This document shows, one piece after another, positions 23,174 to 34,136 of a DNA stretch of 64,000 nucleotides. Both the position numbers and the translations under genes were made by a program. Source of the stretch: Bradyrhizobium sp. ORS 285 (GTDB lineage: Bacteria > Pseudomonadota > Alphaproteobacteria > Rhizobiales > Xanthobacteraceae); NCBI RefSeq assembly GCF_900176205.1, contig NZ_LT859959.1, forward strand, positions 6,035,001-6,099,000, in the 5' to 3' direction. The notes under the pieces were generated by a model. That model was given only the letters and a program-made list of their open reading frames with translations. It did no database searches and was not told the origin of the DNA. Position 1 is the first letter of the stretch, and each line of letters opens with the position of its first letter.

Positions 23174-25249
23174 CTACTCATCATCCCGCGGGCTGATATC
23201 GCGCTTGCCGTGGTAGCCGCGCTTCGGGCGCTTCGGCGGGCCGGGGAAGCGCGCTTCGGCTTCGTGACGCTCGCGCGCCTCCTCGCTGCCGGTGCGCTGC
23301 ACCAGCACGCGGCGGCCCTTGCGATCGGCGACGACCTCGCGCTTCGGCTTGGGCTTCGGATCGGGCAACGGCTCGCGATTGCCCGCGCCGGCCGGGCCGA
23401 GATCGGCGCCGGATTGCGCGATGACCTTCTCGCCGAGCTGCTCGCGCAGCACCCGCGTCTTGACCTCCTGCACCTCGCCCTCGGGCAGCTCCAGCAGCTG
23501 GAACGGGCCGTAGGAGACGCGGATCAGGCGGTTCACCTCGAGGCCGAGATGCGCCAGCACGTTGCGCACCTCGCGATTCTTGCCCTCGCGGATCGCGACA
23601 ACCAGCCAGACATTGGCGCCCTGATCGCGCTCGAGCGTCGCTTCGATCGGGCCGTACTTCACGCCGTCGACCTCGACGCCCGCGGCGAGCTGGTCGAGCT
23701 GTCCTTGCGTGATCTCGCCATGGGCGCGAACGCGGTAGCGCCGGGTCCAGCCGGTGTCCGGCAGTTCGAGCACGCGCGCGAGGCCACCGTCATTGGTGAG
23801 CAGCAAGAGGCCCTCGGTGTTGAAGTCGAGCCGGCCGATCGAGATCAGCCGCGGCAGGCCCTCGGGCAGATTGTCGAACACCGTCGGGCGGCCCTCGGGG
23901 TCGCTGTGCGTCGTCATCAGCCCCCGCGGCTTGTGATACAGGAACAGCCGCGTCCGCTCGCGCTCCGGCAGCGGCGCGCCGTCGACCTTGATCTCATCGT
24001 TCTCGGTGACGTCGAGCGCCGGCGAGTTGATGACGCGGCCGTTCACGCTGACGCGGCCCTGCGTCACCATCTCCTCGGCGTCGCGGCGCGAGGCAAGCCC
24101 CGCGCGCGCCAGCACCTTGGCGATGCGCTCGCCCGTCTTGCCCGGTCGCGGCGCTTCGTCGGGCACGACGCGCTTGCTGCGCTTCTCCGGCTCAGGCTTG
24201 CGCTCGCGATACGGACCTCGGCCGCCGAATGCCGGGCGCTTGGCGAAGATCTCGCTGTCGTTCTCGTTGTCGCGGCGCGGCCGATCACCAAAATCGCGGC
24301 GTTCGCTGCGCGGGTGCTCCTGCCAGTCAGTGCGCCCCTCGGGACGACGACGCGGCTTGTCGAAGCCGCGGTCATCGCCACGATCACGCGGCCGGTCGAA
24401 CTTCGGACGATCCTCGCGGGTGCGGTCAGAGCGCGGACGGTCATAGCTGCGGCCGCCTTCGCGCGAGGAACGCGCGCCGCGATCGCCCTCGCCATCGCGC
24501 TTCTGCCACGGCTTGCTCTCACCGCGCGGCGGACGATCGCCGAACTCCTTGCGCGGCCCCCGCGCGCCGCCACCGAACTTGCGCTCGCCGCGATCGCCCT
24601 CGGCACCGCGCGAGAACTTGCGCTCGCCGCCAAACTTCCGCTCCGGCCGATCGCCTCCGCGTGGCGGACGGTCACCGAAGCTGCGCGCCGGGCGGTCGCC
24701 GCGATCGCGCGCGCCTTCGCCGCGGGGGGTATACGGCCGCTTCTCGCCGTCGCGCTCCCGCGACGCGTAGGGCTTGCGCTCGCCGAACTTGCGCTCCGAC
24801 GACCGGCCCGCGGGACGCGCCTCGTCACGGCCGGCGCGCGGCGTGTAGGGACGCTTCTCGCCGCCGCGATCATCGCGGTCGAATTTCGGCCGGTCACCGC
24901 GCGGCTTGAAGGCACGCTTCTCGCCGTCGCCCGACCGCGCCGCATACGGCCGGTCGCCGCGCGGCCGCTCGTCGCGGTTAAAGCGCGGCTTGTCGCCATA
25001 GGATTTGCGCGGCGCATCGCCGTCGTCGCGGCGGCGCGGCGCGCGGCCCTCGTCGAACGAACGCTTGCCGCCATCGCGCTTGGCAAAGCTCTTGCCGCCG
25101 CCCTCCTTGTCGCCGAAGCCGCGCTTGGCGAACTTCTTCTCCGGCCCGCGCGCGGCGCCCGAGCGTCCCTTCGGCCCCTCGGACCGCCCTCGCGGGGCGC
25201 CACCGCGGCGGCCGCGGGAATCGTTGTCTTTGTCGGTGTCACGGGGCAT
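23174..25249 (-). CDS. 23S rRNA pseudouridine synthase (RluB/RsuA family) with long disordered N-terminus
   Basis: The enzyme isomerises uridine to pseudouridine in rRNA. An S4 RNA-binding domain starts near residue 373 (ERIAKVLARAGLASRR) and the synthase domain carries the catalytic Asp in GRLDFNTEG near residue 471. The total of 691 residues is more than twice the usual family length, because about 370 N-terminal residues are an Arg/Gly/Asp/Lys-rich low-complexity region with recurring units such as GEKRPYTPR, FGDRP and ERKFGG. That tail is probably disordered and RNA-binding, similar to RGG regions. Start ATG 25249. rluB is the likely ortholog but RsuA/RluE cannot be excluded. Confidence 0.88.
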   Translation of the reverse strand: MPRDTDKDNDSRGRRGGAPRGRSEGPKGRSGAARGPEKKFAKRGFGDKEGGGKSFAKRDGGKRSFDEGRAPRRRDDGDAPRKSYGDKPRFNRDERPRGDRPYAARSGDGEKRAFKPRGDRPKFDRDDRGGEKRPYTPRAGRDEARPAGRSSERKFGERKPYASRERDGEKRPYTPRGEGARDRGDRPARSFGDRPPRGGDRPERKFGGERKFSRGAEGDRGERKFGGGARGPRKEFGDRPPRGESKPWQKRDGEGDRGARSSREGGRSYDRPRSDRTREDRPKFDRPRDRGDDRGFDKPRRRPEGRTDWQEHPRSERRDFGDRPRRDNENDSEIFAKRPAFGGRGPYRERKPEPEKRSKRVVPDEAPRPGKTGERIAKVLARAGLASRRDAEEMVTQGRVSVNGRVINSPALDVTENDEIKVDGAPLPERERTRLFLYHKPRGLMTTHSDPEGRPTVFDNLPEGLPRLISIGRLDFNTEGLLLLTNDGGLARVLELPDTGWTRRYRVRAHGEITQGQLDQLAAGVEVDGVKYGPIEATLERDQGANVWLVVAIREGKNREVRNVLAHLGLEVNRLIRVSYGPFQLLELPEGEVQEVKTRVLREQLGEKVIAQSGADLGPAGAGNREPLPDPKPKPKREVVADRKGRRVLVQRTGSEEARERHEAEARFPGPPKRPKRGYHGKRDISPRDDE

Positions 25250-25380
25250 GAAGGTCTCGCTTCGAGGTGCAGGACGCGGGGTGATACGCGCGCTCTGAGC
25301 AGCGCATGTCACGCGGGAAATCGGTGTCCGGTTTTGCTGAAGGGCGATGCAGTAGCAGACTTGACCGGGTAATACGAGCC

Positions 25381-25827
25381 ATGAACAGCCCTTCTTTCAT
25401 GGATTTGGCGCTGAAAGCGGCCGAATCGGCCGCAATTTCCGGCGAAGTGCCGATTGGCTGCGTCGTGGTGCGGAACGGAGAGGTGCTCGCCACCGCCGGC
25501 AACCGGACCCTGACCGACCGCGACCCGACCGCCCACGCCGAAATCCTCGCGCTCCGCCAAGCCGCCCAGGCGACCGGCAGCGAGCGGCTCGTGGATTGCG
25601 ACCTTTACGTCACGCTCGAGCCGTGCACGATGTGCGCCGGCGCCATCTCCTTCGCCCGCATCCGCCGGCTGTATTACGGGGCGGCCGATCCCAAGGGCGG
25701 CGCGGTCGAGTCCGGCGTCCGCTTCTTCGCCTCGCCGACCTGCCACCACGTGCCGGAGGTCTACTCCGCCGTGGGCGAACAGCAATCGGCCCAGATGCTC
25801 AAGGAGTTCTTCAAGGCACGGCGCTGA
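25381..25827 (+). CDS. tadA: tRNA-specific adenosine deaminase
   Basis: TadA converts A34 to inosine in the anticodon of tRNA-Arg(ACG). The 148-residue protein has the zinc-deaminase signature HAE (TAHAEILAL) and PCTMC (EPCTMCAGA), plus VPIGCVVV near the N-terminus. Length and order are typical. The ATG at 25381 is chosen; the upstream 131 bases to the divergent pseudouridine synthase gene form the shared promoter region. Confidence 0.95.
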   Translation: MNSPSFMDLALKAAESAAISGEVPIGCVVVRNGEVLATAGNRTLTDRDPTAHAEILALRQAAQATGSERLVDCDLYVTLEPCTMCAGAISFARIRRLYYGAADPKGGAVESGVRFFASPTCHHVPEVYSAVGEQQSAQMLKEFFKARR

Positions 25828-25829
25828 TG

Positions 25830-25955
25830 TCACTCGCTCAGAAAGAACTCGCGCAACAGCCGCGCTGTTCTGCCGGGCTCTCCTCGGTGAGGAACTGCCC
25901 GGAATCACCGGCGCACCGCGCATTGGTCGCCCAGTTCTGACAGATATCGATCGCG
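25830..25955 (-). pseudogene. Frameshifted C-terminal remnant of an alpha/beta hydrolase (haloacetate dehalogenase-like)
   Basis: Reading leftwards, the minus strand encodes GAIDICQNWATNARCAGDS followed by GQFLTEESPAE in one frame and then TARLLREFFLSE-stop in another frame. Joined, these read like the C-terminus of haloacetate dehalogenases (GHFLxEExPEETAxxLxxFF). Restoring one base near 25868 would fuse the two halves. The expected catalytic His in GHFL is Gln here. Nothing of the N-terminal part remains upstream, because the P450 gene starts its 3' end 20-odd bases away. It appears to be a decayed gene fragment left after a rearrangement. Confidence 0.55.
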
Positions 25956-25977
25956 CCGGCGGACCGCTGATCGTGCG

Positions 25978-27282
25978 CTATGCTATCGCCGAGCGGCGCG
26001 GCGCGCAAAACGAGATGCGGACCGGCAGCGCGCTCACGCCGCTCATGAACGGCGACTCGACGCGGCGGACACGCCCGGCCAGCTCGATCCGCTTCGTTCG
26101 CTGCAACAGTTCCGCGAACAGCGCCCGCATTTGCATGCGCGCCAGTTGCAGCCCCATGCAGATGTGCGGACCGCGCCCGAAGGCGATGTGCGGGTTGGGA
26201 CTGCGATCGATCCGGAACGTGCCGGCGTTCTCGAACATTGTCTCGTCGCGATTGGCTGAATGAAAGAACAGCGCCAGAGCCTCCCCCTCGCGAATGGGCT
26301 GGCCTGCGACTTCGGTATCGCAGAGCGCCGTGCGCATGAAGTGGCGCACCGGGCTGGTCCAGCGCAGCATCTCCTCGATGGCGCTGTCCAGGAGCGCGGG
26401 CTCCGCACGCAGGCGCGCGAACTGATCGGGCGCGGCCAGCAGCGCTTCGAGGCCGCCGGCGAGCGCAAGCGCCGTGGTGTCGTGGCCCGCGGTGACCAGG
26501 AGGATGAAATAGGAGATCAACTCATAATGCGGCATCGCCTGATCGTGCGGCCGGGCATGGGCGATTCGCGTCGCGAGATCCTCGCGCGGGGCGGCGCGGC
26601 GATCGGCGATGACCGCTTCGAAATAATCGCGCAGCGCCAGCATCGCCATGCGCATCGTGTCGCCGGGCGCCTCCGCAAGCCGCCGCCGCGGATCCTCAGC
26701 ACTGACGAACGCCTGGGCGAGGCGGGCGAGCCGCGCATCATCGGATTCGGGCGTGCCCAGCATGCGGCCGATGACGCGGAAGGTAAACGGCAGCGCGACG
26801 TCAGCCGCGAAGTCGCAAGCATCACCGCGCGCCGCGGCGCGATCGATGATGTCAGCGGACCACCGCGACAGCCAAGCCTCCATGTCGCGCAGGGCTGTTG
26901 GTGAAAATGCGCCCTGAGTGATGGCGCGATATGCAGAATGATCCGGCGGATCCATTTCCGTCAGGCTCCGCACGAGCTGCGGCTTGCCGGTGACACGCTG
27001 CAGCACGGCCTCCGACATCTCGCTGGCGAGATAGGTCCGCGGCCCCGCGGCGAACTCGCGGCTTCGCGTCTCGATCGAGCCGACATCGGCATAGCGGGTG
27101 ACGGCCCAGAACGGACGCACGCCGGGACGCTCGACCCAGTGCAGCGGCGATTGCCGGCGCAGAAGCGCGCAGGCCCGCTCCAGCCGCGGAGGGCCGGCGT
27201 GACCTCGCGACGAGATCAGCACATCGACCGCCCGCTCGATCGCCGTCATGCGCCGATCAGCCTTCGACGATGCAACAGACAT
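25978..27282 (-). CDS. Cytochrome P450
   Basis: The 434-residue soluble bacterial P450 has the I-helix motif TAGHDTT (residues 264-270), the K-helix ExxR (E304-R307), and the heme loop FGRGPHICMG with the thiolate Cys375. P450s use two electrons and O2 to oxidise an organic substrate, usually by hydroxylation. No ferredoxin or reductase gene is adjacent. Its ATG overlaps the methyltransferase stop by one base (TGATG), so it is translated with that gene. The substrate is unknown; the resemblance is to the CYP102-independent soluble class such as CYP107/CYP109-like enzymes. Confidence 0.93.
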   Translation of the reverse strand: MSVASSKADRRMTAIERAVDVLISSRGHAGPPRLERACALLRRQSPLHWVERPGVRPFWAVTRYADVGSIETRSREFAAGPRTYLASEMSEAVLQRVTGKPQLVRSLTEMDPPDHSAYRAITQGAFSPTALRDMEAWLSRWSADIIDRAAARGDACDFAADVALPFTFRVIGRMLGTPESDDARLARLAQAFVSAEDPRRRLAEAPGDTMRMAMLALRDYFEAVIADRRAAPREDLATRIAHARPHDQAMPHYELISYFILLVTAGHDTTALALAGGLEALLAAPDQFARLRAEPALLDSAIEEMLRWTSPVRHFMRTALCDTEVAGQPIREGEALALFFHSANRDETMFENAGTFRIDRSPNPHIAFGRGPHICMGLQLARMQMRALFAELLQRTKRIELAGRVRRVESPFMSGVSALPVRISFCAPRRSAIA

Positions 27283-27998
27283 CAGTGCGACAGACTCGTC
27301 TGCAACGGAACGGCATCGGGCTTGCGGCGCACCAGCAGCGTGAACTCCTTCATGCCGTAGTTGTCGATGATGTCGACCATGACCGGAAACTCGCGCGCGC
27401 AGTGCTCAGCCCAGATCTCCGGCGTGGTGCGATAAAGCTGCGCCTCCGAGAGGTCGTCCTCCGCGTGACCGGCTGCATCGGCGCGCATGAAGTTGACGCT
27501 GAAACCGCGCCGGCTGGTTGCGTGCATCTGCCGCAACACATCCTTGACATAGCTTTCCCAGACCTTACGGGGATGGCCGACATTGACGTTCATGATCCCC
27601 GACGCGACCGAATAGTCGGCCATGCGCGGACTCTCCGTCGCGACGACGAAACGACGCTGGGGCGCGGAAAAGCGGCGACGCGCCCGGCTGATCATGGCGC
27701 GGGACAGGTCGATGCCGAGATAGTCGATCTCACAAGATGCAAAGCGCGCGGCGAGAAAAGGCACCAGTGCGCCGTAGCCGCAGCCGATGTCGTTGAGGCT
27801 GAATGGCGCCGACGCATCGCACAACTTCATCAGCTGCACGAAGCGCAGGCCCTGCGTCGCCTCGCACGACCAATCGACGCCACGGGGCGTCGCACCGTGA
27901 CGCGCGACGCAGGCCGTGTAGTAGGCATCGACGCCGGAGCAGATGGCCTCCAGATCAGGAGCCTGCCGTCCAGCACCCCGGCCCCCGGCCTCGCTCAC
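27282..27998 (-). CDS. SAM-dependent methyltransferase
   Basis: A class I methyltransferase of 238 residues with motif I NDIGCGYGALVPF and an acidic motif II (YLGIDLS). Later segments contain GIMNVNVGHP and SVNFMRA, showing it resembles methyltransferases acting on small molecules rather than nucleic acid. The start is a GTG at 27998 that overlaps the preceding gene's stop as GTGA; the stop overlaps the P450 start. It is thus tightly coupled on both sides. A tailoring role with the P450 on a common substrate is an inference. Confidence 0.86.
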   Translation of the reverse strand: MSEAGGRGAGRQAPDLEAICSGVDAYYTACVARHGATPRGVDWSCEATQGLRFVQLMKLCDASAPFSLNDIGCGYGALVPFLAARFASCEIDYLGIDLSRAMISRARRRFSAPQRRFVVATESPRMADYSVASGIMNVNVGHPRKVWESYVKDVLRQMHATSRRGFSVNFMRADAAGHAEDDLSEAQLYRTTPEIWAEHCAREFPVMVDIIDNYGMKEFTLLVRRKPDAVPLQTSLSH

Positions 27999-28486
27999 TT
28001 CTTGCGCTTCTCGACCCGCCTCGCGCGCGCGGTCTCGGCCGCCTGACGGCGGACTTCACGGCCCGGCGTCGTCGGAATGGACACCATCACGTGAACATCG
28101 AGCGAGAACACCACAGGGCGCCCTTCGCAGACCGTGACACGAGGATCGTCAGCCGCAGCGTGGCACACGATCGAGACAGGAAGCGGCTTCTCGGCTTCGA
28201 GGTTGTCCTTGAAAGCCTTGATGACCCGGTCGTGTCCATTCACGTTGGGCAGATCGGAAGGATAGGTCTTGAGGAATTCCAGGAATTTGTACCAGCGCCG
28301 CCGCTCGGACCAGTCGGACGGAACGATTCCCAGCAAAGCGAACGACTGCTGCAATCCATGCTGTAATGAGAAAACACCGAACTCACGCTGCAGCTCGACC
28401 ATCTCGGCCAATGCATCCGAGTCGAAACGCTTGTTCAATTGCACGACGATATCCAGCGTCGTGCTGTCTTTGATCATTGCACCCAT
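27995..28486 (-). CDS. Protein of unknown function, first gene before methyltransferase-P450
   Basis: The 163-residue protein is not recognised. It has no signal peptide or membrane segment. The N-terminal part looks helical (LNKRFDSDALAEMVELQREFG), the middle holds WSERRRWYKFLEFL, and a beta-rich part follows (PVSIVCHAAADD, GRPVVFSLDVHVMVS). The C-terminus is a highly basic helix (ARARRVEKRKK), possibly for nucleic acid or membrane contact. The ATG at 28486 has a G-rich SD. Its stop overlaps the GTG of the methyltransferase by four bases, and it begins 52 bases after the cyclase/ATPase gene. Function cannot be assigned. Confidence 0.75.
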   Translation of the reverse strand: MGAMIKDSTTLDIVVQLNKRFDSDALAEMVELQREFGVFSLQHGLQQSFALLGIVPSDWSERRRWYKFLEFLKTYPSDLPNVNGHDRVIKAFKDNLEAEKPLPVSIVCHAAADDPRVTVCEGRPVVFSLDVHVMVSIPTTPGREVRRQAAETARARRVEKRKK

Positions 28487-28538
28487 GGGCCCCCCGCCAA
28501 TTGCGTTTAGTCATACAAACGCCGGCACTTTGCCCATA

Positions 28539-31500
28539 TCATCTTACTTGTTCAAGGGAGGACCGGAGCGCCATCAACAGCGGCAGGTACAAATCCGCGC
28601 CTGCGGCCTCGAACATGACTTCGACATCGGCCAGCAGGCGACGAGGATCATCGTCTTCCGAGAGATGCGGGGCGGAGCTCACGATGACTCCTCTCAGGAG
28701 CAGAGCTTGCAGCTGCGCGGCGCGATCCGTTCGTCTTCTGCCGACTGTAATGGCTTCCTCAGTCACCGAGAGAGCCATCTCCATTTGTCCGGCCTGCCGC
28801 AGCACCGCGGCGTGAGACGCCAGCATGCGCGCCTCGAACTCGAGACCGGCCCTCGCACGTCGCGCATAGGCTATGGCGTCCTGAAGCTCCTGTGCCCCCA
28901 AGGCAGGATCTCCCGAGGCCGCGTGGGCCAAGGCGGCGCACCACAAGCCGGCGACGCGAATGTACGGCATGCCCGATTGCTCAGCGATCTCAGTCACTCT
29001 CGCGGCATGCTCCTGGACCAAGGCGGCGTTGTCGGTCGCCCATCCAAATTCGACCGATGTGAAATGAGGGATGAAGCGCACGACGGCGGCGACCTGCTGA
29101 TCCACGTCACGAAGCAAATGGGCCAGCTCGCTCGCGACCTCATCGAATCGTCCGAGCTGAAGCAGGATGCGTGCCTTGAGGCATTTGATCCAGTATTCAA
29201 CATCGAAGCCCAGGATCTGATTGGCGGTCAGCCCGAGCGTCACGTTCGTGTCAAATCCACCCTGGCTGGCAATGGCTTGTTGCGCTGTCTCGGCCGCAGC
29301 CAACGCTTCGCGAGCCCGGCCCGACATGAAGTAGGCCTGCGCCAGCATGGCGTTGACGGTTGCGTAGCGGCCGACATCGCCCTCCTCGGACGTCAGCGTG
29401 ACGGCGTTGTGCACCAGATTGACGTAGTCATCCGCCGCTCCCGTCGAGGCAAGTACCCGGCCATAGGCGCCGAGCAGAATCGGCTCGTGCATCTTGTCGG
29501 AGGAGCGCGCATAGCGCAGCGCCTCCTCTGCGAACGGCCTCACTTCGTCAGCCGACATGCCCTCGCGCCATCCGCAATTGAGGATCTGGCCGCTGGCCAG
29601 CGCGCGGAGGCGATCGACGTGATCCGACTGCGGCAATGGCTGCAGCATCGCCCGGATCTTCCGCCATAGGCGCAGCGCTTCTGCGGTATTGGTGCGGCCG
29701 ATCCAACGCGCGGCCCGCTGCAGATGCTCGATGGCCGGCATGGTCTGGCCGGCAAACTCATAGTGCGAGGCGATCAGGGCGGCGAACTCATCCTGGCTTC
29801 CCCAATCCAGTGCTTCGATCGCCTTGGCGACCGACAAATGCACGCTGCTCAGGCGCGAGCGCAGCTGCATCGAATAGGCCACCTCCTGGATCAGCGGATG
29901 GCGGAAGGCGAGCACGCCCATGTCGAACGGGGGCAGATCGTAGAGCAGATCGGCGTTGCGCAACTGAGCGAGCGCGTCGAACAGCTCGGCATCGGCGAGC
30001 CCCATCACCGGCCTGAGCACCGCAAGCGCAACCGAACGGCCGATCACCGCCGCCGTTTCCAGCACGCTTTTGGCAGTCTCGCTGAGGCGATCGATGCGCG
30101 CCGCGACCACGGCATGCACGGTCGGCGGCAGCGGAATGGGACCAATGCCGCCCTTGAGACGGTAGGCGCCGCGCTCGCCCTCGAACCCGCCGCTCTCGGA
30201 GACGGCGCTCGCCAGCTCCTCCAGAAAGAACGGATTGCCCTGCGCGCGCTCGACGATGTCACCGGCCAGCGCCTGAAGCGAGGGATCATCGCCGAACACG
30301 CCGCGCAGCAACTCGCGTGCTTCGGCGGATTGGAGCGGCACGATATGCAGCTCGTGAAACGCCGCGCGTTGCATGAAGGACGCGGCAAAGCCGGGCCTGT
30401 AGTTCACCACCAGCAGGGTCTTGGTGCCGATGGTGGCTTCCGCAAGCGCCTCGACGAACTCCTCGCTCGCTTCATCGATCCAATGCAGATCCTCGATCAT
30501 GATCACCGTCCCGCCATCGGCGGGGCCCGAGCGAAACAGCATCCTGAACACGTTCAAGAGCCGGGTCTTGAACACGCCGGGATCGAGCCGCAGCGCAGGA
30601 CGGGTCGGATCGGCCAGGCCCATGAAGTCAAGCAGCAGGACGAGCGACGTATCGGGGATGCCGATGAGCTCGAGCTTCTCGACCACGCGGTGCCGCGAGA
30701 CCTCCACCGGCTCCTTGGCCCGGATGCCGAAGAAGTCGCGCAGCAATTCGAGGACCGGCTGAAACGGCGTCGTGCGGCCATGCGCGAGCACGCGCGCCTC
30801 GTAGACGCGAATGCCCTGGCGGCGGCAATGCTCGGCAAACTCGAAGCACAGCCGGCTCTTGCCGATGCCGGCCTCGCCGACGATGCCGACCACGGCGCCG
30901 CGCGCCGCCAGCACGTTGTCGAGCTCGCGTTCGAGCACCTCGAGCTGGGCGTTGCGTCCGATCAGCGGCAGCAGCCGCTGCCCGCTGCGAAACACGTCGC
31001 TTGCCGGCGCGTTCAGACGGCCAATCAGTCTGTAGATCGAGACCGGCGTGGCGATGCCACGCAGAGCATGAGTGCCGAGGGACTCGGCTTCGACGAATTG
31101 CCGGGCGCCGGTGTAGGTCTCCTTGCTGATCAGGATCGTGCCTGGCTCGGCCATGTGCTCGAGGCGGTTGGCCAGATGGACGTTGGCGCCGGCTGCGTCA
31201 TAGGTCTGGTACATGCTGTTGTCGACGACCTGGACGATGACTTCGCCGGTGTGCAGCCCGACCCGGACCTGCAGGCGCGGGTCGGCCAGGCGGCCGATCG
31301 AGTCCTGCATCGCGAGCGCGCCGAGACAGCCGCGCACGGCGTGATCCTCATGCGGCACCGGAGCCCCGAACAGCGCCATGACGCCGTCGCCTTGCGTCTT
31401 GTTGACGACGCCGTCGTAGCGGTGAACCGCCTCCTTCATAAGATTGAGCACCGGATCGAGCCGCTGCATGGCGAGCTCGGGGTCGCCGAGGCTGTCGATC

Positions 31501-31769
31501 AGCTGGGTGGAGTCGCGAATATCGGCAAACAGGATGGTGACGCGCTTGCGCTCACCGCCCTTGCTGCTCAGGGTCCGCAGCACGCGCTGGGCGCTCTGGT
31601 CCGGCACGGCCAGCCGGCCCGGCAGCGGCGAGCCACATTGGCCGCAGAAACGATTCGACGGATTGTTGGCGTGGCTGCACGCCTCACATCGAAGGCCGAG
31701 CGGCTCACCGCAGAGATCGCACGAGGCTCTCCCTGGCTGATTTTGCCTCCCGCACCGCGCGCATTCCAT
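28539..31769 (-). CDS. Class III adenylate cyclase / AAA ATPase / TPR sensor protein
   Basis: The 1076-residue cytoplasmic protein has, in order: a double zinc ribbon (four CxxC pairs, residues 3-45); a class III cyclase domain with metal Asp D83 (LFADIRDST) and D128 (TQGDGV), Lys124 and Asp191 favouring ATP, and N196/R202 of the transition-state pair; a STAND-like AAA ATPase (GEAGIGKSR, VIMIEDLHWID); and a long helical TPR-type C-terminus. Such proteins make cAMP in response to a ligand gated by the ATPase. All catalytic residues are present. ATG 31769 has the SD GGAGGGG. It lies just upstream of the unknown-methyltransferase-P450 genes, probably in one transcript. Confidence 0.92.
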   Translation of the reverse strand: MECARCGRQNQPGRASCDLCGEPLGLRCEACSHANNPSNRFCGQCGSPLPGRLAVPDQSAQRVLRTLSSKGGERKRVTILFADIRDSTQLIDSLGDPELAMQRLDPVLNLMKEAVHRYDGVVNKTQGDGVMALFGAPVPHEDHAVRGCLGALAMQDSIGRLADPRLQVRVGLHTGEVIVQVVDNSMYQTYDAAGANVHLANRLEHMAEPGTILISKETYTGARQFVEAESLGTHALRGIATPVSIYRLIGRLNAPASDVFRSGQRLLPLIGRNAQLEVLERELDNVLAARGAVVGIVGEAGIGKSRLCFEFAEHCRRQGIRVYEARVLAHGRTTPFQPVLELLRDFFGIRAKEPVEVSRHRVVEKLELIGIPDTSLVLLLDFMGLADPTRPALRLDPGVFKTRLLNVFRMLFRSGPADGGTVIMIEDLHWIDEASEEFVEALAEATIGTKTLLVVNYRPGFAASFMQRAAFHELHIVPLQSAEARELLRGVFGDDPSLQALAGDIVERAQGNPFFLEELASAVSESGGFEGERGAYRLKGGIGPIPLPPTVHAVVAARIDRLSETAKSVLETAAVIGRSVALAVLRPVMGLADAELFDALAQLRNADLLYDLPPFDMGVLAFRHPLIQEVAYSMQLRSRLSSVHLSVAKAIEALDWGSQDEFAALIASHYEFAGQTMPAIEHLQRAARWIGRTNTAEALRLWRKIRAMLQPLPQSDHVDRLRALASGQILNCGWREGMSADEVRPFAEEALRYARSSDKMHEPILLGAYGRVLASTGAADDYVNLVHNAVTLTSEEGDVGRYATVNAMLAQAYFMSGRAREALAAAETAQQAIASQGGFDTNVTLGLTANQILGFDVEYWIKCLKARILLQLGRFDEVASELAHLLRDVDQQVAAVVRFIPHFTSVEFGWATDNAALVQEHAARVTEIAEQSGMPYIRVAGLWCAALAHAASGDPALGAQELQDAIAYARRARAGLEFEARMLASHAAVLRQAGQMEMALSVTEEAITVGRRRTDRAAQLQALLLRGVIVSSAPHLSEDDDPRRLLADVEVMFEAAGADLYLPLLMALRSSLEQVR

Positions 31770-31911
31770 GGCCCCTCCGTTCCACGGCGGAACTGACTCA
31801 GCCCATTCACGGACTGAGACTATGGAACTGCCACAATTTTCGCGGGAAACATAGTCCGAAGGACAGGCTCACTTCGCGGACCCGAAATCGGGAACTCCGT
31901 CACTGATCCGC

Positions 31912-33195
31912 TCAGGCGTCGCCGCGCTCCTGCGCGACCGCCTGCCAGGCGATGTCGCGGCGACAGAAACCGTCGGACCAAATGATGCGGTCGACGGCCT
32001 GATAGGCCCGCTGCTGCGCCTCTTCCACCGTCTTGCCGGAGGCGCAGACATTCAGCACGCGCCCGCCGTTGGCGATGATCGCTCCGTCCTTCGCGATGGT
32101 GCCTGCATGAAAGATTTCCACGCCCGCAATCTTGGCGGCCTCGTCGAGGCCCTCGATCACGCCGCCTTTCTTGTAGTCGCCGGGATAGCCCTTCGCCGCC
32201 ATGACCACCGTGACGGCCGGCTCCGGAAACCAGCGCAGGTCGAAATTCTTCAGCTGCCCGTCGCAGGCCGCCAGCAGCGCCGGCACCAGGTCGGACATCA
32301 TGCGCAGCATCAGCACCTGACATTCCGGATCGCCGAAGCGGACGTTGTATTCGAACAGCTTGGGCCCCTGCGCGGTCAGCATCAGTCCGGCATAGAGGAT
32401 GCCCTTGAACGGCGTGCCGCGCGCATTCATCCCGGCGATGGTCGGCAGGATGATCTTTTTCATGATCTCGTCATGGATCGCCTGCGTCACGAACGGGGTC
32501 GGCGAATAGGCGCCCATGCCGCCGGTGTTCGGCCCCTGGTCGTGATCGAACACGCGCTTGTGGTCCTGCGCCGAAGCCAGCGGAATCGCCGTCTCGCCGT
32601 CGCACAGCGCGAAGAACGAGACCTCGCGCCCCTCGAGAAACTCCTCGATGACGACCTCGGTGCCGGCGACACCGAAGCCGCCGTCGAACATTATCCGCAC
32701 TGCGTCCTCGGCCTCGGCCAGCGTCTTGGCGACCACGACGCCCTTGCCTGCCGCCAGCCCGTCGGCCTTCACGACGATCGGCGCGCCATGCTCGCGGACA
32801 TGGGCCAGCGCCTCCGGCGCATTGTCGAAGCGACCATAGGCGCCGGTCGGAATGCCGTATTCGGCGCAGAGATCCTTGGTGAAGCCCTTGGAGCCTTCGA
32901 GCTGGGCGGCGAGTTTGCGCGGCCCGAAAATCTTGATCCCGGCGGCCTCGACATCGTCGACGATGCCCGCGGCCAGCGGCGTCTCCGGCCCGACCACCAC
33001 CAGGTCGACCTTATTAGCCTTGCAGAAGTCGATCACCGCCGCATGATCGGCGACATCGAGCGCCACGCATTCGGCCTCCTTGGCAATCCCCGCATTGCCG
33101 GGCGCGCACCAGAGCTTGGTGAGCAGCGGGGAGCCGGCAAGCTTCCAGGCGAGCGCATGCTCGCGGCCGCCGGAACCAATGAGGAGAATGTTCAT
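31912..33195 (-). CDS. purD: Phosphoribosylamine-glycine ligase
   Basis: PurD (GARS) makes glycinamide ribonucleotide from phosphoribosylamine, glycine and ATP, the second step of purine synthesis. The 427-residue protein starts [19 protein letters not shown] and contains the ATP-grasp core ([17 protein letters not shown]) and FGDPECQ. Length is normal. The ATG at 33195 is preceded by a weaker in-frame start at 33210, which is not favoured. It is followed by the cyclase gene after 142 bases. Confidence 0.95.
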
Positions 33196-33267
33196 CGTCG
33201 ATGCCGTCACAGGGGGAAAGGGTCAATTTGGAGGCCCCAATTGCCCGGCCCTTGCAGCAGAGTCAAA

Positions 33268-33606
33268 TCATGGCTCCGGCGGTTTGGCAGCCGTCCCGGC
33301 GATGATTTCCTGCAGGCTGGCGACGTGGCGGGCAAACGCCGTCCGGCCGGAGGAGGCCAGCCTCACGGTGGTCTGCGGCTTCTTGCCGACGAAGGCCTTG
33401 TCCACGGTGACGTAGCCGGCGCGGGCCAGCGTCTCGATATGGGCGCCGAGATTGCCGTCAGTCGCCCCGGTCAGCTTCTTCAGCCGGACGAATTCCAGAC
33501 CTGTGCCGGCCGGCAGCGCATTCAGCGCCGCCATGATTCTGAGTCGCAGCGGCTGGTGGATGATCTCGTCGAGCTCCGCCAAGGCCGCTAGCCCCGCCGC
33601 ATCCAA
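33268..33606 (-). CDS. Winged-helix transcriptional regulator (HTH_34-type)
   Basis: The 112-residue protein has a PLRLRIMAALN helix, an LKKLTGATDGNLGAHIETL recognition region and a VTVDKAFVGKKPQTT wing, matching the winged-helix family PF13601 found beside small membrane proteins. There is no ATG; the likely start is TTG at 33606, overlapping the membrane-protein gene by 19 bases, with another TTG at 33582 possible. It is encoded with the membrane protein and hydrolase genes upstream and may regulate them. The effector is not known. Confidence 0.78.
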   Translation of the reverse strand: MDAAGLAALAELDEIIHQPLRLRIMAALNALPAGTGLEFVRLKKLTGATDGNLGAHIETLARAGYVTVDKAFVGKKPQTTVRLASSGRTAFARHVASLQEIIAGTAAKPPEP

Positions 33607-34136
33607 AGGCCGCCCACGATCAGGCCGACGCCATTGACGACGGCCATCCACAGCGGAAACGCCGCGCCGACGAAGGCGTAGCCGATCAGGGTCAGCACGA
33701 TGATTCCGAGCCCGAAGATCGTGAACGCGATGCCGAACCACAGGCCCGCAAGGCAATAGAACAGCATGAAATAGATCGGCCAGAACGCGCCCATCTGGCG
33801 CGGGCCGAAATGGCCGATGGTCTCGACGAAGAAGCCGAAGGCGAACAACATCACGAAAGCGAACAGCGGCCTGACGTCGAAGCTGCCCATGCCCGATCGC
33901 GCCTTCTCCGCCGCCCCCAGCACGACCGATCCGACGATCCCGAGCACGTAGACCGCGAGCCATGTCTTGTCGGCGTAGACCGGCGTCAGATAGGTGACGA
34001 GATTGCCGGCAAAGACCAGCGCGCCCCACAGGATCATCAGCAGGCTGGAGAGCCTGTAGATCTGCGACTGGCGCACGCGCCTCGTGATGTCCTTGATGTC
34101 ATCGAGGGCGCGGGCGGCTTCCAGACGGTCGATCAT
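33588..34136 (-). CDS. Six-helix membrane protein of unknown function
   Basis: The 182-residue protein has about 30 polar N-terminal residues and then six predicted membrane helices (about 33-52, 58-77, 91-107, 119-137, 138-156, 160-178). No motif identifies a function. It starts 14 bases after the hydrolase stop and overlaps the winged-helix gene, so the three form one unit. Pairs of a small membrane protein with an HTH_34 regulator are recurrent in bacteria, but I do not know their role. Confidence 0.75.
   Translation of the reverse strand: MIDRLEAARALDDIKDITRRVRQSQIYRLSSLLMILWGALVFAGNLVTYLTPVYADKTWLAVYVLGIVGSVVLGAAEKARSGMGSFDVRPLFAFVMLFAFGFFVETIGHFGPRQMGAFWPIYFMLFYCLAGLWFGIAFTIFGLGIIVLTLIGYAFVGAAFPLWMAVVNGVGLIVGGLWMRRG

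Follow-up and report, generated by a model that had tools for sequence, protein, structure and literature searches.

In the genome of Bradyrhizobium sp. ORS 285, which is assembled as one 7.80-Mb contig, four minus-strand genes encode a large cyclase/ATPase sensor (CYC), a small protein (SP), a methyltransferase (MT) and a cytochrome P450 (P450). The genes lie within a stretch of 64,000 nucleotides, referred to below as the window, that spans positions 6,035,001 to 6,099,000 of contig NZ_LT859959.1 (assembly GCF_900176205.1). Loci are denoted by L numbers and genomes by G numbers, the genome of the window being G000. From the evidence presented here, the locus appears to represent one version of a modular signaling system in Bradyrhizobium. 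An original prediction, made from the letters of the window, had described the four open reading frames (ORFs), and all of them are present, base-exact, where it had placed them. Recomputing the junctions likewise returned a 52-base gap between CYC and SP, a 4-base overlap of SP with MT, and a 1-base overlap of MT with P450. The set is flanked upstream by purD and downstream by tadA, which is convergent with it. The features, in window coordinates, are as follows.

28539..31769, minus strand: CYC, a 1076-amino-acid (aa) sensor with a zinc ribbon, a class III cyclase, an AAA_16 ATPase and a probable helical-repeat C-terminus (ORF, Pfam, clade tree)
31032..31547, minus strand: class III nucleotide cyclase domain, CYC aa 75-246 (Pfam Guanylate_cyc, 2.3e-23)
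30408..30968, minus strand: AAA_16 / STAND-like ATPase domain, CYC aa 268-454 (Pfam AAA_16, 1.4e-21)
27995..28486, minus strand: SP, the "unknown" of the original prediction, a 163-aa putative small partner protein (ORF; no family; AlphaFold2; dN/dS)
27282..27998, minus strand: MT, a 238-aa class I S-adenosylmethionine (SAM) methyltransferase with a GTG start (Pfam Methyltransf_25, 9.9e-9; NDIGCGYG)
25978..27282, minus strand: P450, 434 aa, a probable optional accessory oxidase (Pfam p450, 1.6e-25)
25851..25865, minus strand: terminator-like hairpin 3' of P450 (consensus match only)

Three Pfam domains score above their cut-offs in CYC, namely DZR (double zinc ribbon), Guanylate_cyc and AAA_16. 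The second of these, at 83.2 bits against a cut-off of 21.9, identifies a class III cyclase. The third, at 78.1 bits and with GEAGIGKSRL and IEDLHW retained, identifies an ATPase resembling the signal transduction ATPases with numerous domains (STAND). In the C-terminal region, the sole repeat match is to TPR_12, below cut-off at E=0.019. MT is a class I SAM methyltransferase by its Methyltransf_25 match (36.2 bits) and its NDIGCGYG motif, of which GCGYG is kept in all 39 MT proteins, and P450 carries AGHDTT and FGRGPHICMG. The intact motifs that had been claimed for the sensor, the methyltransferase and the P450 were thus confirmed by reading the translated sequence. We take GEAGIGKSRL to be the P-loop and IEDLHW to be the Walker B motif, and presume the customary roles for those of MT and P450.

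When 195 genomes of the genus were searched, SP homologs were found in 36, and occupied 38 places. CYC lies beside SP and MT in 35 of the 36 regions fetched. The lone region without it (L036) stops at a contig end; in the same genome, a different contig ends at a cyclase (L136), next to which the first part of an SP gene can be made out as a weak profile match (E 0.017). A search with MT returned 56 places in 53 of the 195 genomes, and the 37 at E<=4e-56 are all SP loci. Following a gap in E-values, 19 further places appear at 1.5e-37 to 5.9e-28, and neither SP nor CYC is found in the stretches fetched around them, three of which are shortened by a contig end. The trio of CYC, SP and MT is present at several different chromosomal sites, and these three are the only genes that recur in nearly all 36 regions. 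As judged from this distribution, they make up a specific, co-inherited unit.

The 19 distant methyltransferases (L097-L115, 30-38% identity) represent a sister subfamily that sits in a recurring gene cluster. At L115, the locus annotated, WbqC, PhyH and a family 2 glycosyltransferase are among the products encoded nearby, and most of the other distant places have homologous neighbors.

That SP homologs would always be accompanied by both the methyltransferase and the P450 holds for the former, which adjoins SP in 36/36 regions, and fails for the latter. P450 is found at nine of the 38 methyltransferase loci having a cyclase (the window, L027-L033 and L042), and its standing as a core member is not borne out. 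When 48 genomes of the same genus were searched and the best 21 candidates per genome scored, matches of at least 46% identity occurred at three places, all of them cyclase loci; the next best, at 43%, lies elsewhere. P450 is an optional add-on of a few lineages. A P450 near L044-L052 was considered as the same gene and rejected, being ~30% identical and located beside TetR and major facilitator superfamily (MFS) genes.

Searches of Pfam, NCBIfam, PHROGs and PADLOC assigned SP itself to no family, and the PDB gave no significant fold match. The AlphaFold2 model of the window's type, SPa, has a predicted local distance difference test score (pLDDT) of 91.4 and consists of five helices (residues 7-20, 26-36, 45-52, 59-74 and 84-96), three strands (104-110, 117-122 and 132-139) and a basic C-terminal helix. 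Conservation extends over the full length of the protein, with no variable core. Relative to L027-L029, the ratio of nonsynonymous to synonymous divergence (dN/dS) of SP is 0.05-0.10 (0.05-0.12 over four relatives), compared with 0.15-0.17 for CYC, 0.13-0.18 for P450 and 0.24-0.27 for MT. Relative to L033, the values are 0.12 for SP, 0.25 for CYC and 0.24 for P450. The low ratio of SP is partly due to a high dS (1.3-1.8, near saturation). Taken alone, its dN of 0.10-0.14 against L027-L029 is similar to that of CYC (0.11-0.12) and P450 (0.10-0.12), and its dN of 0.18 against L033 is below those of CYC (0.27) and P450 (0.32). SP is a real protein, strongly conserved under purifying selection, yet not clearly more constrained than CYC. 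As a conserved family that is nameless in the libraries used and has no recognized fold, it could have a new structure.

A second form of the system emerged from a search of the genus with CYC, in which the best three candidates per genome were scored, such that further cyclase copies may have been missed. Cyclase-ATPase sensors are frequent in the genus, 141 of the 195 genomes giving matches at E<=1e-80. Among the matches was a set of cyclases at 48-52% identity, in places distinct from the 38 SP places above, and 12 such regions were fetched. In each of the 12, the cyclase has a small protein next to it (many of these begin MG and many are basic-tailed), and a gene encoding an HExxH protein, termed M48-like here, is also present. 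The motif is present in all 13 M48-like genes (L123 has two); seven of the 13 proteins were chosen by that motif for profile building, and the profile found the other six. Pfam M48 was matched above cut-off, at 28.6 bits, by one of four proteins tested, the other three falling below cut-off or giving no match. The third-ligand region is variable and reads CECAAD, CDCAAD, WQGQAD or SSERRASE.

The small proteins of these loci (SPb, SPc and SPd) were compared with SPa, and with one another, by profile alignment. The hhalign probabilities were 98.0 for SPa-SPb, 94.0 for SPa-SPd, 97.1 for SPb-SPc, 82.5 for SPb-SPd and 73.4 for SPc-SPd, and a control set from the same loci (32 families less SP itself, that is, 31) gave values of 2.6 or lower. 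A search of the 195 genomes with the SPb profile placed all 13 of its matches at cyclase loci, and five of these are SPa proteins, including that of the window (E 1.6e-7 to 6.3e-5). The predicted folds also agree. The SPb model (pLDDT 72.8) has helices at residues 8-20, 23-36, 48-54, 70-78 and 81-95 and strands at 102-111, 120-130 and 133-142, in an order of elements identical to that of SPa, and ends in a low-confidence basic tail. By these comparisons, SPa, SPb, SPc and SPd are homologous families, defined here as the SP superfamily.

Just ahead of the basic tail, at an edge modeled with low confidence, SPb proteins share the stretch DP..D.GE..P, in which one Glu is invariant (E162 of the L128 protein). 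This stretch is a candidate for recognition by the HExxH enzyme.

The cyclases of both forms belong to one clade, for which 54 loci were surveyed. CYC occurs with SPa and MT at 38 of them and with SPb, SPc or SPd and the M48-like protein at 12; L136 lies at a contig edge, and three are of other composition. SP profiles recognized a protein at 50 of the 54 loci and gave a weak match at one more (L136). MT and the M48-like gene were found together within 3.5 kb at none of the 54. As an outgroup, 26 cyclase loci were drawn from the rows below the clade among the matches listed, these being a part of all such rows. Profile searches found no SP, MT or M48-like gene within 3.5 kb of the cyclase at any of the 26, some of which end at a contig edge within that distance (e.g., L141). 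The neighboring genes were read at six of these loci (L131-L135 and L137), the other 20 having been covered by profile search.

In a tree of 79 cyclases, 53 clade rows fall on one side of a branch with a Shimodaira-Hasegawa-like approximate likelihood ratio test (SH-aLRT) support of 100. The tree excludes L052, whose cyclase lies in two ORFs, and L036, which reaches a contig end and has no cyclase. M48-type cyclases form one group (support 97) beside the methyltransferase lineage of the window, with the other methyltransferase types outside. Since the M48 types are nested among methyltransferase types, the pair of SP and enzyme was probably exchanged under a conserved sensor.

The close packing of the genes in the window had been taken to imply one transcript. 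In 23 of the 39 SP-MT cases, and in five of the 13 SP-M48 cases, SP and CYC are encoded on opposite strands. The first of these counts means that a shared transcript is not essential to the system. A consensus scan of window positions 25800-32050 found no sigma-70-like promoter, and the minus strand of the 52-base CYC-SP gap yielded no terminator-like site; six terminator-like sites were observed in all, compared with 3.3 expected by shuffling. The possible single transcript of the window would be one of several arrangements.

Individual loci show further variation. A second copy of the system occurs in the window's own genome (L026, G000:C1:343-348 kb), where SP and MT are on the strand opposite CYC and the cyclase is divided between two frames (aa 1-121 and aa 119-1071). 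The cyclase at L052:5768-8949 is also in two ORFs. At L044:10105-10762, an extra SP and a short methyltransferase fragment lie upstream of the main pair. At L123:5902-12387, two SP-M48 pairs flank a single cyclase, one on each side. A short ORF at L128:12629-12871, beginning MGDF, is similar to the small neighbors found at L130 and L139; the ORF beside it resembles an IS3-type transposase.

The nucleotide product of CYC was addressed by comparing cyclase residues among the five commonest forms per group. The window lineage retains FADI, K..GDG, YDAAG and the Arg, with His in place of the usual Asn; the same His is seen in the commonest outgroup forms. In the other methyltransferase lineages (L026, L042-L061 and their kin), the commonest forms have Arg or His in place of the Lys, and HGAYG, QSVYG or HEAQG in the Asp region. 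We take the Asp pair to bind metal, the Asn and Arg to act on the transition state, and the Lys and Asp to govern the choice of adenine. On this basis, the window CYC is likely to be an adenylate cyclase, and such activity is uncertain in the other methyltransferase lineages. Coupling of the locus to cyclic AMP (cAMP), as the original prediction proposed, is possible.

The model that best accommodates the findings as a whole, put forward tentatively and with somewhat less than an even chance of being right, is that of a STAND-like cyclase whose SP partner is acted on, or else deployed, by an exchangeable enzyme. Binding of a ligand or partner to the C-terminal region of CYC would switch the ATPase, and hence the output of cyclic nucleotide, which in the window may be cAMP. 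SP would be a small folded protein that contacts CYC and works directly with it. The enzyme paired with SP, a methyltransferase here and a putative HExxH M48-like peptidase in another lineage, would take SP as its substrate and methylate or cleave it, perhaps in the C-terminal tail. As for the presumed direction of signaling, the state of SP would then be read by CYC, or SP would be released by CYC. P450 would stand outside this core. The enzyme would likeliest act on SP because methyltransferases and peptidases share few kinds of substrate besides protein; the swap between MT and the HExxH protein is, in effect, a natural experiment that narrows the substrate. A stricter version would give the STAND-like cyclase a dedicated, new-fold SP whose covalent state it reads, with interchangeable enzymes setting that state by methylation in one branch and by proteolysis in the other, as plug-in forms of adaptation-like control; this version is possible and rather doubtful. 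The inputs of cyclase-ATPase sensors are, to our knowledge, mostly unknown, and a dedicated partner with an exchangeable enzyme would offer a handle on what the CYC clade senses and how its output is set.

Several observations weigh against this model or the comparisons beneath it. At L130, L138 and L139, the small neighbor is unrecognized by the profiles and neither MT nor the M48-like gene is present; for L130 and L139, this neighbor is weakly like SPb, with an hhalign probability of 38.5 (other families <=1.3, SP set aside), and for L138 the best value was 4.2. SPa and SPc, compared directly, gave 4.2, and are linked only by way of SPb and SPd. The SPb, SPc and SPd profiles were built from, or seeded by, proteins of the 12 M48 loci, so their presence at those loci is by construction and the weight rests on the family-to-family comparison. 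Profiles could likewise overlook a strongly diverged SP beside one of the outgroup cyclases. The cyclase tree is a quick tree that carries a long-branch warning (L026, L042, L043 and L138 are among the branches concerned), and the nesting of the M48 types within it rests on forks with supports of only 86 and 92. A basic tail is not general, given median charges of -4 in SPc and +3 in SPd. Finally, as the adenine-choice Lys and Asp are changed in other methyltransferase lineages, the identity of the cyclic nucleotide, and even catalysis, is uncertain there.

The closest alternative keeps the same genes and assigns SP to the enzyme rather than to the sensor. SP would be a subunit or chaperone of its enzyme, CYC would sense a cue, and the enzyme would be the output, acting on a metabolite, a lipid or a foreign protein, much as in the adaptor-effector sets around STAND ATPases. 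The 4-base overlap of SP and MT favors this arrangement, as does the way in which the type of SP tracks that of the enzyme (SPa with MT at 38 loci; SPb, SPc or SPd with M48-like proteins at 12). NTP-dependent conflict systems do unite STAND ATPases, cyclic nucleotide cyclases and peptidases, as two accounts of them describe (PMC7159879, PMC8195603). However, a subunit role leaves unexplained the tie of SP to one clade of cyclases, the window locus lies among housekeeping genes (purD, tadA), and the PADLOC results are limited to PycC matches in the cyclase domain and to weak hits for methyltransferases and peptidases. SP as a target of its enzyme is preferred over SP as a subunit or adaptor, which is possible but on balance unlikely. 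That the genes are mere neighbors packed by chance would suit the variation in gene order and strand among lineages, and is very improbable given the recurrence of the trio at several chromosomal sites and the absence, by profile search within 3.5 kb, of SP and MT from all 26 outgroup loci. From this gene distribution, chance packing is refuted for CYC, SP and MT, whereas P450 may be a mere neighbor.

Two further readings make the locus a biosynthetic one. In the original prediction, MT and P450 carried out a dedicated, cAMP-coupled tailoring of a small molecule, as the overlap of their genes in the window and the confinement of close P450 matches to cyclase loci in the 48 genomes would allow. 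The swap of enzymes argues against such a pathway: an M48-like HExxH protein, with a homologous small protein, replaces the methyltransferase at 12 loci of the same clade. Together with the low frequency of P450, this leaves the dedicated task unsupported, and the reading is improbable. Methyltransferases, P450s and peptidases are also the usual kinds of tailoring enzyme for ribosomally synthesized and post-translationally modified peptides (RiPPs). SP might then be a long precursor that is tailored or cut by MT, P450 or the peptidase under the control of a TOMM-like kinase/cyclase, and CYC does match TIGR03903 (TOMM_kin_cyc) over aa 68-866 at 272 bits. In two lineages, the unit is accompanied by transporter genes (MFS in L044-L052, EamA in L053-L061), which would suit an exported product. 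The TIGR03903 score, however, is far under the cut-off of 705.75, with no kinase domain matched, and SP is folded (pLDDT 91) and conserved throughout, without the leader and variable core of a precursor. CYC, SP and MT alone are near-constant in the 36 regions, and the MFS-type gene (cluster e4) also occurs at M48 or outgroup cyclase loci without SPa (L125, L127, L133 and L135; TetR and P450 genes accompany it at three of the four), so it may mark the site and not the unit. A RiPP-like route is likewise given little credence, and the preferred model, with SP as a partner of CYC acted on by its enzyme, is retained.

Spread beyond the genus was also examined. The named relatives of SP are all Bradyrhizobium; in a separate set of four loci, one derives from an alphaproteobacterial metagenome assembly. 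A family-wide profile search with A1, in which the best 12 candidates per genome were scored, gave matches in four of 295 genomes. A family-wide search with CYC gave clade-type matches in eight of 295 genomes and three of 47 genera. At the level of the order, MT was found only in G000 among 297 genomes, and clade members of CYC only in G000 and G063 among 249. A mobile element was considered as the carrier and rejected, as tblastn of P0001 against plasmid and phage collections gave no match. No RNA element reached its gathering score in window positions 25000-34000. A winged-helix ORF near the locus (window 33268-34029) is a single 253-aa frame in the window, L029 and L031, but falls into two frames at other loci; these overlap in L027, L028 and L030 and adjoin each other in L034.

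The original prediction knew of no described system with such a make-up, and narrow searches of the open-licence literature found none among the papers listed. Among known types, M48/gluzincin peptidases share with the M48-like proteins the HExxH motif (13/13) and differ in their Pfam M48 match (above cut-off in 1/4) and in a variable third-ligand region. Pycsar systems share a class III cyclase with the unit (PycC profiles, best 1.3e-10) but have a very different architecture; no cyclic nucleotide effector was found in the unit, and the neighbors of CYC other than SP are MT, P450, purD and tadA. The NTP-dependent conflict systems have the same modular logic of a sensor ATPase, a nucleotide signal, exchangeable enzymes and small coupling domains (PMC7159879, PMC8195603). 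The unit differs from them in that SP has no Pfam domain and no vWA or MoxR gene is among the annotated neighbors, for which no dedicated search was made; Bradyrhizobium is not mentioned in the main text of either paper. TOMM_kin_cyc proteins (TIGR03903) are homologous to CYC over the region noted above, but CYC falls well short of the family cut-off, has no kinase match, and has no TOMM synthesis gene among the annotated neighbors of the unit. In architecture, CYC corresponds to bacterial proteins that join a class III cyclase, an AAA/STAND ATPase and repeats, which have the same domain order as CYC (cyclase, AAA_16, C-terminal region). What sets the CYC clade apart from such sensors is SP, joined at 50 loci by an exchangeable enzyme. 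These comparisons suggest that the unit, with its SP family nameless in the libraries used, is a variant of the cyclase-ATPase sensor architecture.

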